Assembly: GCA_019775845.1 (NCBI GenBank)
Contig: JADQAV010000007.1
Location: 372,390-436,389, forward strand
Direction of reading: 5' to 3'
DNA: 64,000 nucleotides
Source: Myrmaecium sp. VS I D KN 1
Lineage: Eukaryota; Ascomycota; Dothideomycetes; Valsariales; Valsariaceae
The stretch's first letter is position 1. Each line of letters starts with the position of its first letter. The translations under genes and the position numbers were made by a program. Positions 30,963 through 53,282 of the stretch are shown piece by piece. Under the pieces are notes generated by a model. That model ran no database searches. It was not told where the DNA came from and worked only from the letters and a program-made list of their open reading frames with translations.

Positions 30963-33021
30963 TTAGGACCCCGTAAGATTTTTCTTCCAGATGATGCCTA
31001 GAGCAGCTGCAGCACACACAGTAGCTCCAGCTACGAAGTAGAGTTGTGTTCGATCAACAGGCTCGTCGTCCTGTTTGGGGAATGCTGTGGAAGGATAGGT
31101 ACAGCATTCAGCAAGCTACTGAGAATCAGCCACTGTCCACACGAAGTAACAAAGAACAGGTTGCACTCACATGCACAAAGAATTCGGAGATGCTGCTCCA
31201 AGTCACGCTCACGTGTAACGGAGCAGCCATGTTCAACGCGTTTGTGTGGTCATCAGGTTGCTGCTCGCATCTCTGCATCGCCTTATCCTGATCTGCTTTG
31301 AGCGCAGTATAGACGGCTGGCATTCCATCCAGATGAGGGTACTTCTTGCGCAAGTTCAAGATGTGCTCGAAACTGTCCGGATCGCTTGAGTCGTAGGTAT
31401 AACAAAGAAGGTCACAGGCATCTAGTTTGGCCTGGTTCTCCAAGATCGCGGGCTCAAGTTCTCCTAATTCCTCTAAGATGAGGTAACACTGTTTCCCGCC
31501 CTTGAGTTCAACGCTGTTTACAGCAGAACGTGGCTTGATTGTCGGATGGTAAGTATGGCTGAACGGTCTGTTGAGGAAGGCATCCAGAAGAGCGCTTTTA
31601 CCGCTGCCGCTGGAACCGAGGACATAGCAAAGGAAAACATTGCGCTCGACCCGGCCAGGCCGGTTCCTTCGCTTGCGAGCTCTCGTCACCTTCAACGCAG
31701 CTGTTGTCCCGCCCTTCTCGGAGCTCTCGAACCCTAGGTATGCTAGGTACTCTAGAGTGGTTTTGGGCTCCTCAAAGGTAGTCATGCTCCACTGAGCCAA
31801 CCAGCCCTGTAGTGTAATATGACCCTGTTCATTGCGCACAGTACACGATGGGAACGATGATTCTACCCAGGAGGCCGGCAACCCAGGCGTTGGAGCAAAC
31901 AGTGCAGCCAGCTCCGAATCGTTAAGACCGCCGTCATTGTCCTTGTCGAAAAGAATGAAAAGATCGACGAAAAAACGGTATCCTGCTGGGCTGAGCTCCG
32001 CGGAAGAGTAAGGAGGAACTTCAAATTTGGGGTGCAGGAACCCATCTTTGAGGCTCAGACTGTCAGTGTAATTAAACTTGCGCAGAATGATCCAAACCGT
32101 TTCATGACGACCCTTTTCAACAAAAATCTTGTTGAGGAGAAGGAAACCATTCACATCTAACCCGTGCTCCGACACAGAGTCCGGAGATATCTTGGCGATG
32201 GTTTTCTTGATGTTTGCCAGTTCCTCTTCAGATAACGGTTTCTCAAAACATTTCAACTGGAAGATGTGTATCTCCTGGTCATTGAGATACCCATCTTGGT
32301 CCTTGTCACTCAAGTAGAATATCCTGCGCAAGGCGGATACCGCTGCTGGCTTCAAAGTTGCTTCTTTGGAGTCGTACAAAGGGGATATGGGGTGAGTGAC
32401 AGCCTTTTGGCACAGAAAGAACACCTCATTGATGTTGTGGTGTTCTTTCGCACTTGTCCGTATGCAGGAATCTATTTCCTTGAATTCGTTCATAACCGGG
32501 AGCATCTCATCCGCCACGACCTGAGGCGAAGATCCATTGCTTTGCAGATCCGATTTGTTCGCACACAGCACGACTGGCACATTGACACCCAGCGATCGAA
32601 AGTATGGCATCCAGAAAAGAGCCACTCTCTCATAGCTGTAGTGGTCGGAATATACTAATAGTATCACATTCGACTTTCGTAGCTCCCTGCGGAGGTTCTC
32701 GCGCTCCTGCGGTAAGGCAGAAGTATCGACAATTACCGTAGTGACATTGTCAGGTGTGCCGAGAGCGGGTGGGAGTGTCACTTGGGGAAGGACGGGTTGG
32801 ATCCGATGGGTAACGAAGACATCCTTTACGAGCGCTGTGATCAAACTGGATTTACCTGATGACAAAACTGTCAGCTGCGTGTATAGGCGCATGGAATCTC
32901 TGAGAACACGCTTACCTGTCCCTTCATCGCCGCAAACACAGATACGGACTGCTTCCCGAGATACGCTCAGCGATCACGCCCTAGTCGTCAGCGAGTGGCA
33001 GGAGAACATACCAGTCGCCAT
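30963..33021 (-). CDS. gem1: Mitochondrial Rho GTPase (Miro/Gem1)
   Basis: Outer-membrane GTPase that regulates mitochondrial morphology and inheritance and the ER-mitochondria tether (ERMES). Four minus-strand exons: 33012-33021, 32916-32948, 31171-32855 and 30963-31115, giving 626 residues. It starts [20 protein letters not shown], the P-loop of the first GTPase, with NKSD further on. Two canonical EF hands follow ([13 protein letters not shown] and [13 protein letters not shown]). The second GTPase has [15 protein letters not shown]. The last exon supplies the C-terminal anchor, [20 protein letters not shown], followed by a short basic tail. All family parts and the normal length are present, so the gene looks intact although it abuts the RIP relic. 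The start codon is in a 10-nt exon. Confidence 0.96.
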
Positions 33022-47166: not shown

Positions 47167-48368
47167 ATGGAGAACTACCAGAAGATGGAGAAGATTGGCG
47201 AGGGTATGGTTGCCAATGATGCCTACTCCCAGCGCAACCCCGCCCCCCGCCTGCCAGCCAGCAAGCCATCACCGCTGTACCCTTTGCACTTGCTGACCCA
47301 ATCACGCGTTTTACAGGCACGTACGGTGTGGTCTACAAAGCCAAGGACCTGACCACCAAGGACCAGCGCATCGTCGCCTTGAAGAAGATCCGGCTCGAAG
47401 CCGAGGACGAGGGCGTCCCCTCGACCGCCATCCGCGAGATCTCTCTCCTCAAGGAGATGAACGACCCCAACATCGTGCGCCTGCTGAACATCGTGCACGC
47501 CGACGGCCACAAGCTGTACCTGGTCTTCGAGTACCTCGACCTGGACCTGAAGCGGTACATGGAGGCGCTGCCCGTCAGCCAGGGTGGACGGGGCAAGCCG
47601 CTGCCCGAGGGCTCCGGCAGCGCGTTGCAGAACTTGGGCCTGGGCGCGGACATGGTCAAGAAGTTCATGTCGCAGCTGGTGGAGGGCATCAGGTACTGCC
47701 ATTCCCACCGGGTCCTCCACCGCGACCTGAAGCCGCAGAACCTGTTGATCGACAAGGAGGGCAATCTCAAGTTGGCGGATTTCGGTTTGGCCCGGGCGTT
47801 CGGTGTGCCTTTGAGGACGTATACTCATGAGGTTCGTGGGGGTCCTGGACGCTGAGACGCGGGCGATATATTGACATGGTGATTAGGTGGTGACCCTCTG
47901 GTACCGTGCTCCCGAAATCCTCCTCGGTGGTCGACAGTACTCTACCGGTGTCGATATGTGGTCCGTGGGCTGCATCTTCGCCGAGATGTGCACGCGGAAG
48001 CCGCTCTTCCCCGGTGACTCCGAGATTGACGAGATTTTCAAGATCTTCCGGTGCGTATCCACTTCTGCTACCACGTACATCGTGTTCCAGACTGACAGCG
48101 TGCCAGTGTCTTGGGAACTCCTTCCGAGATGGAGTGGCCCGGTGTCTCCTCATTCCCCGACTTCAAGCCTTCCTTCCCCAAGTGGGGTCGTGTCGACATC
48201 GCCACTCTTGTTCCGGGTCTCGATGACAACGGGCTGGATCTGCTCGAGTGCTTGCTGATCTACGACCCGGCCGGTCGTATCTCCGCCAAGCAGGCCATCA
48301 CTCACCCATACTTCACGGAAGGCTCCAACCCTTACATCTCCAGCGTCAAGAACGGATACTACCATTAG
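47167..48368 (+). CDS. nimX: Cyclin-dependent kinase 1 (Cdc2/NimX)
   Basis: Master cell-cycle kinase acting with B-type cyclins at G1/S and G2/M. Exons 47167-47203, 47317-47831, 47887-48050 and 48107-48368 give 325 residues. The start [20 protein letters not shown] carries Thr14 and Tyr15, targets of Wee1-type inhibition. The cyclin-binding PSTAIRE helix is exact. The catalytic loop is [14 protein letters not shown], then DFGLARAFG, and the activation segment is [15 protein letters not shown]. The insert [20 protein letters not shown] between the kinase lobes is characteristic of filamentous-fungal Cdc2. The exon 2 donor is GTTCGT; the neighbouring phases confirm it. The gene is complete and divergent from AlkB. 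Confidence 0.97.
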
Positions 48369-49141
48369 GTATGATCATGGACACGGACGGCACAGTCTCG
48401 GTTCGGGAGAAGTGTCGGAGTGGGTTTCTTGACGATCCGATCATAGGAGAGGGATAGCAGTTGATGCTACTGCGATAACACTGGCGTGGGACTGTGTTTG
48501 GAGTAGAAAGCGAAAGGGATGAACATTGGGTCCACTCTCTTGGAGCGGCTTTGGGAAAATTATATCTGGGGTAGATGCCCCCCGGGAAGGAGAGAGAGGT
48601 GGTACATCAGTAGTGTGGGTATGTCGTTTCGTTTTATGCATTCCAATGGGGAAACTCAGGAGGGCGTCCGGGCAGGACGTCGAACGACCACGAACATCGA
48701 TCGGTTGCTTGCTTACGAAGGAGTCACGGGAAGGGGTTAGGGAGGTGTTGCAGGACGGACTTTATGGGAACTCCCTTTCTTTTTTGTTTCATTGAGGATA
48801 GTACACGTTCTATCCCTTCTTTCTCTCGTCTCGTCTCGTCTCGTCTTTTCCTCCGTTTTGTGCATGATAGAGTGGGTCAGATGATTCAATCAGAAAACAT
48901 CTCTCGGTTTTGAAAGTCAGCCTTGTATACATGTAATTGTGATGACCGAGTATGTTGTAATGTGTACGCGCAGAGTGTGGGGTCTCCAGAACGCCGGCGA
49001 TAACGAGACCCGTAATCTTAATTCCGATGGACCCCTCGCTCTCTCCCCTCGTCACCGCAACCACTTGCCAGTGAAACTCACACATCCATCCACCTGCACC
49101 GCCGAAGTCACCAACAGTCCCCTCATCCACAATCACCGACA
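48369..49141. other. Intergenic region, Cdc2 / GH18-UBA gene
   Basis: Contains the 3' untranslated region of the kinase gene. A pentamer run (TCTCG)n lies at about 48823-48845. No gene was seen. Confidence 0.55.
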
Positions 49142-50394
49142 ATGCCACCGCCGCCGCCCATCCCCACGTCCTCCCGTCCCGGCCCGGACCTCCTCCCGAC
49201 GACGGAGCACCCGCCGCGGCTGGTCCTGTACGCGCAAACGCACCACAGCCCGACCGGGGCGCCGTACTCGTTGCTCCCGCTGCTCGAGCGGCACACCGGG
49301 GTGACGCACGTCATCGTGGCCGCCTTCCACCTGAACGCCCGGCCGGGCCACATCACCCTGAACGACGACCCGCCCGACCACCCGAAGTTCGCCGTGCTGT
49401 GGGAGGAGGTGCGCCGGCTGCGGGCGGCGGGCGTGACGGTCATGGGCATGCTCGGCGGCGCGGCGAAGGGCACGTATGAGCGGTTGAGTGGGGGTGAGGA
49501 GCAGGTATGTTAAGAGAGAGAGGGTGTGTGTGGTGATGGTTGGGAGAGTATAGCTAACTAGAATTCCAGTTCGAGAGCTACTACCAGCCTCTCCTAGCAA
49601 CCCTGCGCTCTCTCCCACTCACCGGGCTCGACCTCGACATCGAGGAACCCACGCCGCTAACAGCGGTAAGCCGACTGCTACGCCGACTCCGCGCCGACAT
49701 GGGCCCCTCCTTCACCCTCTCCCTGGCGCCCGTCGCCACCGCCCTGATCCCGGACCCGAACCCGGCCGTGAACCCAGGCCTGCTCGCGCGGGCGACACCG
49801 TTTCCGGCCCCGGACCCGGCCTGGCGCAGCCTGCCCCACCTCAGCGGCTTCGACCACGCCGCCCTGGCCCGCCACCCGGACCACGCGGCCGCCTGGGCCG
49901 CCGTCGCCTTCCTGAACGTGCAGTTCTACAACGGCTGGGGCGGGCTGGCGCCGGACGGGCGCTTCGTCGACGCCGTCCTGGCCGCGGGATGGGACCCCGC
50001 GATGATCAACGTGGGCGTCCTGTCCAGCCCGCGCAACGGCCGCGGCTACGTCGCCCCCGACCGGCTCCGGAGCGTGCTCGCCGGCCTCCGTCGCCGTCAT
50101 CGTCGCTTTGGCGGCGTGATGGCGTGGGAGTATTTCAATGCGGGTTTGGAGGGCGGCGGCCACGCGTGGGAGGGCGCGGATACGTGCGAGCCGTGGCGGT
50201 GGGTGCGTGCGGTGGCGGAGGTGGTAAGGGTGCCTGAGTCTGCGTTCGGTTGGGATCGGGAGGAGGACGCGGTGGATGAGGGGAAGGTGGAGATTCTCCT
50301 GGGATTGGGGATCCCGCGTGACCGCGCGGTTGGCGCGCTGCGGGCGGCGGATGGGAATGTGGAGGTTGCGGCTAGCTTGTTGTTTCAGGAGTGA
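49142..50394 (+). CDS. GH18-type glycosidase fused to a C-terminal UBA domain
   Basis: Two exons, 49142-49504 and 49570-50394, encode 395 residues. The chitinase/ENGase-like TIM barrel begins PPRLVLYAQTHH. It includes THVIVAAFHLN and GVTVMGMLGG (barrel strands), and the family 18 catalytic motif at 141-147, LDLDIEE, with Asp142, Asp144 and acid Glu146. Later VAFLNVQFYNGWG and FGGVMAWEYFN match strands near the substrate. No signal peptide is present: the start is MPPPPPIPTSSRP. After residue about 355 a UBA domain follows: KVEILLGLGIPRDRAVGALR then AADGNVEVAASLLFQE. A cytosolic hydrolase of N-glycans or chitin oligomers with ubiquitin binding, possibly in glycoprotein disposal, is an inference. 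A GT-like site at about 49664 is read through in frame. Confidence 0.88.
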
Positions 50395-50660: not shown

Positions 50661-52642
50661 TCATCCATCATTCCGACCAAACGCCTTCTCTCGAGCCGCT
50701 ACGCCGTCTCCCGCCCCAGCAGCCTTCAACCGCTCCCCCAACCACGCAGCAAGCGCCAACACCTTCTCCTCCTGCAACCTCCCGCCCACAACCTGCACCC
50801 CCACCGGCGCCCCATGATACACCTCCGGATCATACGCCTCCGCAATCCGACAATCCAACTCCGTGCGGCGGCACCGGCGCTCCACCTCCACCGCATCGAC
50901 CGGATCCCGCCCACGATCCGCCGTCATGACCGGCACCACCGCGGCCGCATAATCCAGAACGTTCACCCAGCTCGCGTAACCGATATAAGCGGCGGCGGGG
51001 GCGGCGCCGCGGTCCGGGCGCGCGGCCGCGCAGGGGGCGACGGGGGCGAGCAGCGCGTCGACGGGGCGGCGGGTGGCGGTACGGTGGGCGCTGGCGCGCC
51101 AGTAGGTGAGGTGGGCGGTGCGGGCGGTGCGGATGGTGCGGTTGAGGGTGAAGAGGGAGGGGTGGGTGGTGGTGGGGGGTTGCGGCGTGGGGGAGTAGAG
51201 GGCGGTGATGGGGAGGAGCATGGGTTCGGAGCTCAGGGCGAGGGCGGCGTGGATGTTGTGCCCGTTGTCTTGGGTGAAGATGCGGTTCTGGTTTGTGTGA
51301 AAGGGGGGTGTGAGGTGAGGTGAGGTGGGTGGGATTGGGAAAGTGGGGGGGGGTTAACACTTACGATGAGGGAGGCGAGGTCGGCGTGGGAGCAGGGGCT
51401 TGGAGGGTCCCAGTCGATGACCTGAGGGGAGGAGAGGTGTCAGCGGTGTGAATCACCAAGGTATGTACTTGTACGTACGTCGTGCCCCAGCTTCCGGAGA
51501 GTTTGAGCGACAATCTCCATCGCGCGTCGAACAGGCGGGTGCGGCGTGACGACGCCATCATGCTTGAGGAGACCAAAGGCAAGCTTGCCCTCCGGTCCCT
51601 CCGTCCGGAGCATGGCCGCGACCTGCCGCTCGATCTCATCCCGCCACGGCATCTCGATGACCATGGGATCGTGGAGCCAGGGCTCCTGCGACAGGATGGC
51701 TTTCACCACCAGCGTGAGCCCCGCCGCGCTCGTCGCCAGCGGCCCGACCACCGACGGCACCGTGATCTGACCATCCATCGAATTGGCCATGCCCGCGTAC
51801 GGCAGCCGACCCGTGCTCGGACGGAGACCATAGAGACCGTTGTAGGCGGCCGGGATGCGGATGCTGCCGCCAATATCGGTGCCGAAACCCACGGGGCTGC
51901 CGCGGAGGGCGATCAGGGCGCCCTCGCCGCCGGAGCTGCCGCCGGCGGAGAGCAGCCGGTTGCGCGGGTTCCAGCAGTAGCCGATGATGTGGTTGGTCGT
52001 CTCGCCGGCCATGAGGGTGTGCGGCACGGCCGTCTTGCAGTACAGCACCGCGCCCAGCCGGCGCAGCTCCCGCACCATCTCGCTCTCGACCACGCCTTCC
52101 CTGCCCGTGCCCGTCTCCCCTTCGAACGTGCCGATCCAGCCGACGTAGCCCATCGTCGTCTCCACGCCCCCCACGTGGAATTGGTCCTTGAGGGAGACGG
52201 GGAGGCCGTGGAGGGGACCGATGGGCCCGCCGTGGGCGGCGTAGTAGGCGTCTAGGGCTTCGGCGTCGGCGATGGCGGCGTCGAAGAAGATTTCGTGGAG
52301 GCAGTTGACCTGGGGGGGGTTTTCAGTCAGAACACATGGAGCACGTCGGATAGATGATGAGGTCGATACCAATTGATGCGCAATCGCCGCCCGATGGCAA
52401 AACGCCCTCGTCACCTCGACCGCCGTCCAATCGCCCGCCGTCGTCCGCTTCACGATGCCGACGGCGTCCGTCTCGGTGATCTCGATCTCGCGCGGGCTGA
52501 GGAACTGCTGAACGTACGCGCCCGTCACGTCGCGCTGCTCGTCCGCGGAGGGGATCCGGTCGAGGCGGTGGGCGGCCGGGATCTGCGCGGTGATGGCGGC
52601 GCGCTTCGCTGCGGCTCGCGCTTGCCAGTCTGTGCTGGCCAT
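50661..52642 (-). CDS. AmdS-like amidase (amidase signature family)
   Basis: Hydrolyses amides to a carboxylate and ammonia, as in acetamide or general amide use. Exons 52370-52642, 51479-52309, 51365-51421 and 50661-51287 give 595 residues. The Ser-Ser-Lys triad is visible: Lys132 in HGLPVSLKDQ, Ser216 in SAGGSSGGEGAL, and the nucleophile Ser240 in GTDIGGSIRIPAAYNG. The 24-residue gap between the two serines matches the family. The C-terminal part has HGAPVGVQVVGGRLQEEKVL, also typical. The start MASTDWQARAAAKRAAI lies in an exon whose frame stays open another 154 codons upstream (to 53104). That extension has untranslated-leader character and is excluded. No signal peptide is seen, so the enzyme is cytosolic. 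The physiological substrate is unknown. Confidence 0.93.
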
Positions 52643-53282
52643 GATGGGTTGGGATCGGGGAGGTGGTGAAGAAGGGAGTCTGTGGGTGTTAGTTGGGTAG
52701 GAAAAGAGAGTGAGGGAGGGGCTGAGAAAGTGAGGAAGTGAGGAAGTGAAGATGAAGTCGTACCGAAAGAACGAACCCCGCACGCAGTGCCTCGATCCAG
52801 TGTCTCGGTCACACCCCCGAGTGCGGGGAGTAGTAAGGTGGAGGCATTCGATACGCTGTCCCCGTTGGAGCACAGCAGGGGTATGGTATGTAGGTAAGTG
52901 AGAGGGAGAGGTGTAAAAAGCCCTCGGACGGTACAAACCGCCCGAATGTATATAAAAATACGGTTGTATAGGTGAACACGTACCATACATACCATACAAA
53001 CCCTCACCTCCCCCTCCCCCTCCCCAGTACCCAAATCCTATACCCTCCCCCCATAAGCAGCAGCCTTGCATGCAATTCATAAGCAGTTCGCAATACCACC
53101 TCATTCAATGTCCTGGACATCAACATCATAACGGAAGAAGAAAAGAACAGGAGGGGTATCAATAAAACCACACCATCCCCCTCCTCTACCCCCTCTTCCT
53201 CCATCTACCATTCAAAGAGAGACATCCCCTCCAAGCGAAGACGAAAGAAGAAGAAGAAAACAGGAAAGGAAAGCAGTCAGAA
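52643..53282. other. Intergenic region upstream of the amidase gene
   Basis: Holds the amidase promoter and leader, and the 3' end of the next minus-strand gene. A (CCCCCT)-like run lies near 53010-53050. No gene was supported. Confidence 0.5.

Follow-up and report, generated by a model that had tools for sequence, protein, structure and literature searches.

A GH18 barrel joined to a C-terminal Ddi1-type UBA domain in Myrmaecium: a candidate cytosolic ENGase that may be recruited to ubiquitinated glycoproteins

The window (the whole stretch of 64,000 nucleotides that was analysed) carries a gene in which a glycoside hydrolase family 18 (GH18) barrel is followed, after a short linker, by a C-terminal ubiquitin-associated (UBA) domain (Table 1). 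The initial annotation had placed this gene at 49142-50394. These limits are correct, but the frame requires a 65-nt intron (49505-49569) that had been left unmentioned: when unspliced, it meets a stop two codons past the exon 1/exon 2 junction. The spliced product (translation of 49142-49504 joined to 49570-50394) has 395 aa, its junction (GGEEQ/FESYY) shows no gap when aligned to the structure 2Y8V, and the CTAAC of the intron is presumably the branch-site motif. Upstream of the ATG, the first in-frame stop is met at 49019 and no other in-frame ATG intervenes; the N terminus, MPPPPPIPTSSRPGPDLLPTTEHPP, contains no hydrophobic stretch by eye, in agreement with the earlier claim that a secretion signal is absent. 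A single open exon encodes both the UBA and the second half of the barrel, and the GC content by codon position over the last 33 codons (0.76, 0.48 and 0.73) indicates that the coding pattern runs through the UBA; the possibility that the UBA belongs to a separate transcript was rejected on these two grounds. A protein kinase gene lies directly upstream (window 47167-48368, + strand, Pkinase in 47328-47852) and resembles, by eye, the Cdc2/CDK1 kinase, and an amidase gene (PF01425, window 50664-53104, - strand) follows downstream, in convergent orientation to the GH18-UBA gene. The style of the gene and its closest homologues suggest a filamentous ascomycete.

Table 1. Features of the GH18-UBA locus (positions in the window; residues of the spliced protein)
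Feature	Position	Strand	Description or evidence
GH18-UBA gene	49142-50394	+	two exons around one intron
Exon 1, residues 1-121	49142..49504	+	proline-rich start without visible signal peptide, then first part of the barrel
MxGG motif, M103-L-G-G	49448..49459	+	sequence
Intron, 65 nt, GTATGT...CTAAC...CAG	49505..49569	+	junction gap-free against 2Y8V
Exon 2, residues 122-395 and stop	49570..50394	+	remainder of the barrel, then linker and UBA, frame open throughout
GH18 (beta/alpha)8 barrel, residues 25-341, split by the intron	49214..50229	+	Pfam, PDB matches, alignment, Foldseek
DLDIE catalytic motif, D142/D144/E146	49630..49644	+	intact; D144/E146 = Endo T D129/E131
Proline-rich insert of 26 residues, 184-209	49756..49833	+	lacking in all 15 aligned relatives (2 fungal, 13 bacterial)
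Acidic linker, residues 342-356	50230..50274	+	low-confidence stretch in the model
Ddi1-type UBA of three helices with an LGI loop, residues 357-392	50275..50382	+	Pfam, six-frame search, PDB, alignment, models

The spliced protein was compared with Pfam (hmmscan), which recovered GH18 at residues 28-175 (E 1.3e-7, 32.1 bits against a cut-off of 29.6) and UBA at residues 357-392 (E 3.2e-5, 24.1 bits against 22.4). Both matches only just exceed the curated cut-offs, and the GH18 match stops short of the second half of the barrel. A scan against NCBIfam returned one weak and irrelevant match (E 0.092). Moreover, the gene was absent from the 6 matches of a six-frame search of the genome (25.66 Mb in 66 contigs) with the GH18 profile, so that little weight can be placed on this profile by itself. 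The barrel is strongly supported by the PDB instead: phmmer aligned residues 20-181 and 210-316 with 2Y8V (E 2.8e-74) and residues 25-183 and 211-341 with 4AC1 (Endo T; E 7.3e-56), far ahead of the next match, a Streptomyces chitinase (E 1.3e-6). The identity over the barrel is 54% to 2Y8V and 44% to 4AC1, as calculated on an alignment over fragments of both chains. Foldseek, run on a model of exon 2, ranked both structures among its five top matches, at modest TM-scores (0.43-0.47). The barrel with a DxDxE motif that the initial annotation had recognised is thus confirmed by a Pfam score above the cut-off, an intact DLDIE and the PDB match.

The gap present in both PDB matches corresponds to the 26-residue insert listed in Table 1. 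We considered that it could be an unspliced intron and rejected this explanation: of the three GT-AG pairs spaced 40-110 nt apart in the region, a single one (49800-49844) would preserve the frame, its donor GTTTCC is unusual, and its excision would delete the conserved L212 and S213 while leaving most of the first part of the insert in place.

For Endo T, the active site is described with Y12, D129, E131, Y195 and W259 (PMC3408457). These correspond to Y30, D144, E146, Y241 and W307, and all five are invariant in the three-sequence alignment (chain numbering offset of 4, derived from the alignment). The first Asp of the DxxDxDxE motif is replaced by Thr (TGLDLDIE) and, in Endo T, by Glu; this position is also reported to depart in MaEng18A (PMC4169460). 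The MxGG motif was described in three Metarhizium ENGases, the remaining 21 of the 24 GH18 proteins having S/AxGG (PMC4169460). On sequence grounds the barrel would belong with the fungal GH18 ENGase group B-V (also subgroup E), whose members, according to Stals et al. (PMC3408457), are ENGases often misnamed chitinases; the same authors refer to proof that the function of Endo T and Endo FV is deglycosylation rather than the breakdown of chitin (PMC3408457). We consider an ENGase much more likely than a chitinase, and a generic chitinase was rejected since the nearest solved barrels are 2Y8V and Endo T and the MxGG motif is present. Only one gene of this kind was found in the genome: the sole 2 tblastn matches at E 0.001 are the gene's own exons, to the exclusion of all 6 GH18-profile matches, and GVM(A/G)WEYF, searched as a degenerate pattern, matched once, in the GH18-UBA gene itself.

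Concerning the UBA, a blind six-frame search of the genome with the corresponding profile recovered the locus among the 10 matches listed (E 1.1e-4, 27.4 bits). Compared alone with the PDB, the domain matched yeast Ddi1 first (E 1.5e-6) and NUB1 next (E 0.0012). It shares 20 of 37 residues with the UBA of yeast Ddi1 (score 94, 20 s.d. above shuffles) and 18 of 38 (47%, score 88) with that of the Ddi1 encoded in the same genome, which was identified by its aspartyl protease and UBA profiles; the two Ddi1 UBAs score 97 against each other. Among the 9 other UBA matches listed in the genome, this Ddi1 scores best against our UBA (88) and the next reaches 59; the remaining ones include proteins that, by recognition, we take to be Rad23, Ubp14, Swa2 and Dsk2.

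Structural models agree with this assignment. AlphaFold, given exon 2 with an alignment to 13 bacterial relatives that contribute no UBA, produced three helices at exon-2 residues 237-273 (block mean confidence 70 for 231-240 and 82-90 for 241-274; overall mean 64.3), and the half barrel was poorly modelled. Folded alone without alignment, the UBA stretch again gave three helices, with a mean pLDDT of 82.6. The UBAs of Ddi1 and Mud1 came top in Foldseek with this model (probability 1.00, E 0.079 and 0.096, hence no match at E 0.001), and with the exon-2 model the UBA 1wiv appeared at rank 41 (probability 1.00, E 0.38). Mud1 is reported to be the Ddi1 of fission yeast (PMC5028754). Altogether, what had been called a clear UBA from the letters alone is borne out by the profile score, the blind genome search, the match to yeast Ddi1 and the three-helix models, and the profile searches proposed as a check placed both domains above their cut-offs. 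The canonical ubiquitin-contact loop of a UBA is MGF/Y (or LGF); both the yeast Ddi1 and that of the same genome have LGF, whereas the domain described here has LGI, which could weaken ubiquitin binding. Yeast Ddi1 without its UBL (RVP-UBA) is reported to bind ubiquitin with a Kd of 43 uM (PMC5028754). Since the domain is only 47% identical to the Ddi1 UBA of its own genome and yet keeps the fold-defining pattern, the comparison suggests that the fusion is old and has been kept by selection.

The protein was then compared with known systems. Like Eng18B, Endo FV and their kin (B-V or E), it has a GH18 barrel, the catalytic D and E and no visible signal peptide, and it shares with the Metarhizium ENGases their reported MxGG. 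It is set apart from the B-V/E ENGases, as published, by the C-terminal UBA. Indeed, only GH18 was found by SMART, InterProScan and CD-Search in Trichoderma atroviride Eng18B (337 aa; PMC3346758), and GH18 is the only domain reported for the Metarhizium ENGases (PMC4169460), so that a UBA is not general among the published members as annotated. From its reported length, Eng18B would have, by our estimate, about 50 aa past the barrel, a length that would fit a UBA-sized tail. The nearest solved barrel, 2Y8V from Aspergillus fumigatus, was deposited as chitinase ChiC; its crystal chain has 290 aa and the match runs up to residue 272, so that a UBA would not fit in the remainder. Endo T / Eng18A of Trichoderma reesei (4AC1), an ENGase with the same active-site residues, differs in that it is described as secreted and as losing a 46-aa C-terminal peptide by clipping (PMC3408457). 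This peptide approaches in length the linker and UBA together (54 residues).

The UBA resembles Ddi1 by sequence and both Ddi1 and Mud1 by fold; unlike these proteins, the GH18-UBA protein has, in the Pfam scan, neither a UBL nor a retroviral-like protease domain. No UBL appeared among the 5 families recovered by that scan down to E 1, and a shuttle factor of the UBL-UBA type was rejected accordingly. A scan of bacterial genomes with two barrel patterns identified 13 relatives among 60 candidate stretches (35-39% identical), all from genera of the Actinomycetota. A hydrophobic signal-like stretch precedes the match, by eye, in all 13; 12 of them end at most 9 aa after the match and one has about 145 further residues. 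These relatives inform the barrel and not the fusion. The viral contigs gave 48 pattern matches and no relative.

The genome was also searched for other enzymes acting on N-glycans. A PNGase candidate (L020; G000:C10, near 1413079), one of three transglutaminase-like matches, aligns with mouse PNGase (E 7.8e-48) and keeps the stretches RCGEW, DHVWTE and DACE, in which the catalytic Cys, His and Asp are found. This PNGase looks intact, so the ENGase need not be the main deglycosylase. It differs in this respect from Neurospora PNG-1, which is reported to be inactive (PMC3346758). A single match was obtained for the GH38 mannosidase (E 9.8e-97). In plants and animals, cytosolic ENGases usually belong to GH85; the single match to this family (L019, 1501-1840; G000:C37, near 150587) consists of two pieces in different frames, which are consecutive on the profile (24-74, E 1.4e-8; 71-118 of 302, E 0.0069, with a score under the curated cut-off), and nothing was found there beyond profile position 118 among the best candidates scored. 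The locus looks like a frame-broken remnant of a GH85 ENGase, and the GH18-UBA gene would thus be the only intact ENGase candidate within what was searched.

Considering these data together, we give about an even chance to the following reading: the protein would be a cytosolic GH18 ENGase of the fungal B-V group that is recruited, through its C-terminal Ddi1-type UBA, to ubiquitinated glycoproteins in ERAD. Briefly, misfolded glycoproteins would be pulled from the ER and ubiquitinated; the UBA would tether the protein to the ubiquitin chain or, alternatively, to the UBL borne by a proteasome shuttle, Rad23 for example; close to the proteasome, the barrel would then cleave the bond joining the two GlcNAc residues of the N-glycan core, and the bulky glycan would be gone before the glycoprotein is degraded. 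The enzyme may also trim, at the same place, the free oligosaccharides released by PNGase. A role of the intracellular Eng18B in ERAD has been discussed (PMC3346758), and we infer the link between this role and a Ddi1-type ubiquitin binding in one mechanism. The working analogy is the couple formed by Png1 (PNGase) and Rad23, in which a deglycosylase is connected to ubiquitin and the proteasome through a separate protein, whereas here the UBA is built in. Png1 has a fold and a chemistry other than those of GH18. The initial annotation had contrasted the absence of a signal with the secretion of most fungal GH18 enzymes. This contrast is weakened by the ENGase-group members without signal peptide already in print (T. 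atroviride Eng18B, Endo FV and others; PMC3346758, PMC3408457), which make a cytosolic GH18 not unusual in itself; the unusual part is the UBA. Its proposal of a cytosolic enzyme acting on ubiquitinated glycoproteins remains the best reading, and its mention of autophagy found no specific support.

Because the PNGase looks intact, a serious rival is that the enzyme follows the textbook pathway and acts on the free oligosaccharides released by PNGase, and that the UBA only positions it beside PNGase at the proteasome, via the UBL of Rad23 or Ddi1. We hold this to be possible, although on the unlikely side. The free-glycan route looks complete in this genome (the PNGase with its Cys, His and Asp motifs, and the GH38 mannosidase), ENGase is described in reviews as trimming PNGase products (PMC9102325), and an interaction of the Rad23 UBL with the Ddi1 UBA is also reviewed (PMC11012796); however, free glycans would presumably not require the recognition of ubiquitin. 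The present data do not discriminate between this rival and the main reading. The UBA could also serve as a C-terminal stabiliser, sparing the enzyme from degradation at the proteasome with no role in the choice of substrate. Its place at the extreme C terminus and a loop that may bind ubiquitin weakly are consistent with such a function, which has been described for receptors that also bear a UBL, a domain that this protein lacks, and we find it improbable.

A passive relic, in which binding has been lost and the enzyme works like any intracellular Eng18, is an explanation that we judge decidedly improbable: the LGI loop and the GH18-only architecture reported for Eng18B and the Metarhizium ENGases would fit it, but the confident UBA fold, the codon-position GC pattern persisting through the domain and the fold-defining pattern, kept though about half of the residues differ from Ddi1, argue against it. 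The chance that the gene encodes a cytosolic chitinase, or that the fusion is an annotation artefact, appears very slight, given on one side the deposition of 2Y8V under a chitinase name and, on the other, the MxGG motif with the kinship to Endo T, and the single open exon shared by UBA and barrel.

Neither the enzyme family nor its intracellular branch is new, and what may be new is the fusion with a Ddi1-type UBA. Searches of open papers did not reveal this fusion; since most subscription papers and all sequence databases lie outside these searches, this is weak evidence of novelty, and automatic annotations of the same architecture probably exist in other fungi. How filamentous fungi deglycosylate ERAD substrates is presented in the literature as unsettled, Neurospora PNG-1 being inactive (PMC3346758). 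If a ubiquitin reader is built into an ENGase, glycan removal and ubiquitin would be physically linked. More broadly, UBA-bearing GH18 ENGases might be a direct ubiquitin-reading deglycosylase of filamentous fungi, one protein doing the joint job of Png1 and Rad23, the fusion being ancestral to the group and the C-terminal tails of similar length in other fungal members, such as those of Endo T and Eng18B, being worn or unrecognised UBAs. We regard this generalisation as unlikely; if true, it would explain how glycans are removed before the proteasome in fungi with a catalytically dead PNG-1. An ENGase that acts directly on protein-bound glycans leaves N-GlcNAc stubs, a product reported to be linked to aggregation in NGLY1 deficiency (PMC9102325).

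Elsewhere in the window, a gene on the - strand (31126-32892) encodes a Ras-type GTPase with EF-hand-associated domains. We take this make-up to be that of the Miro GTPases.
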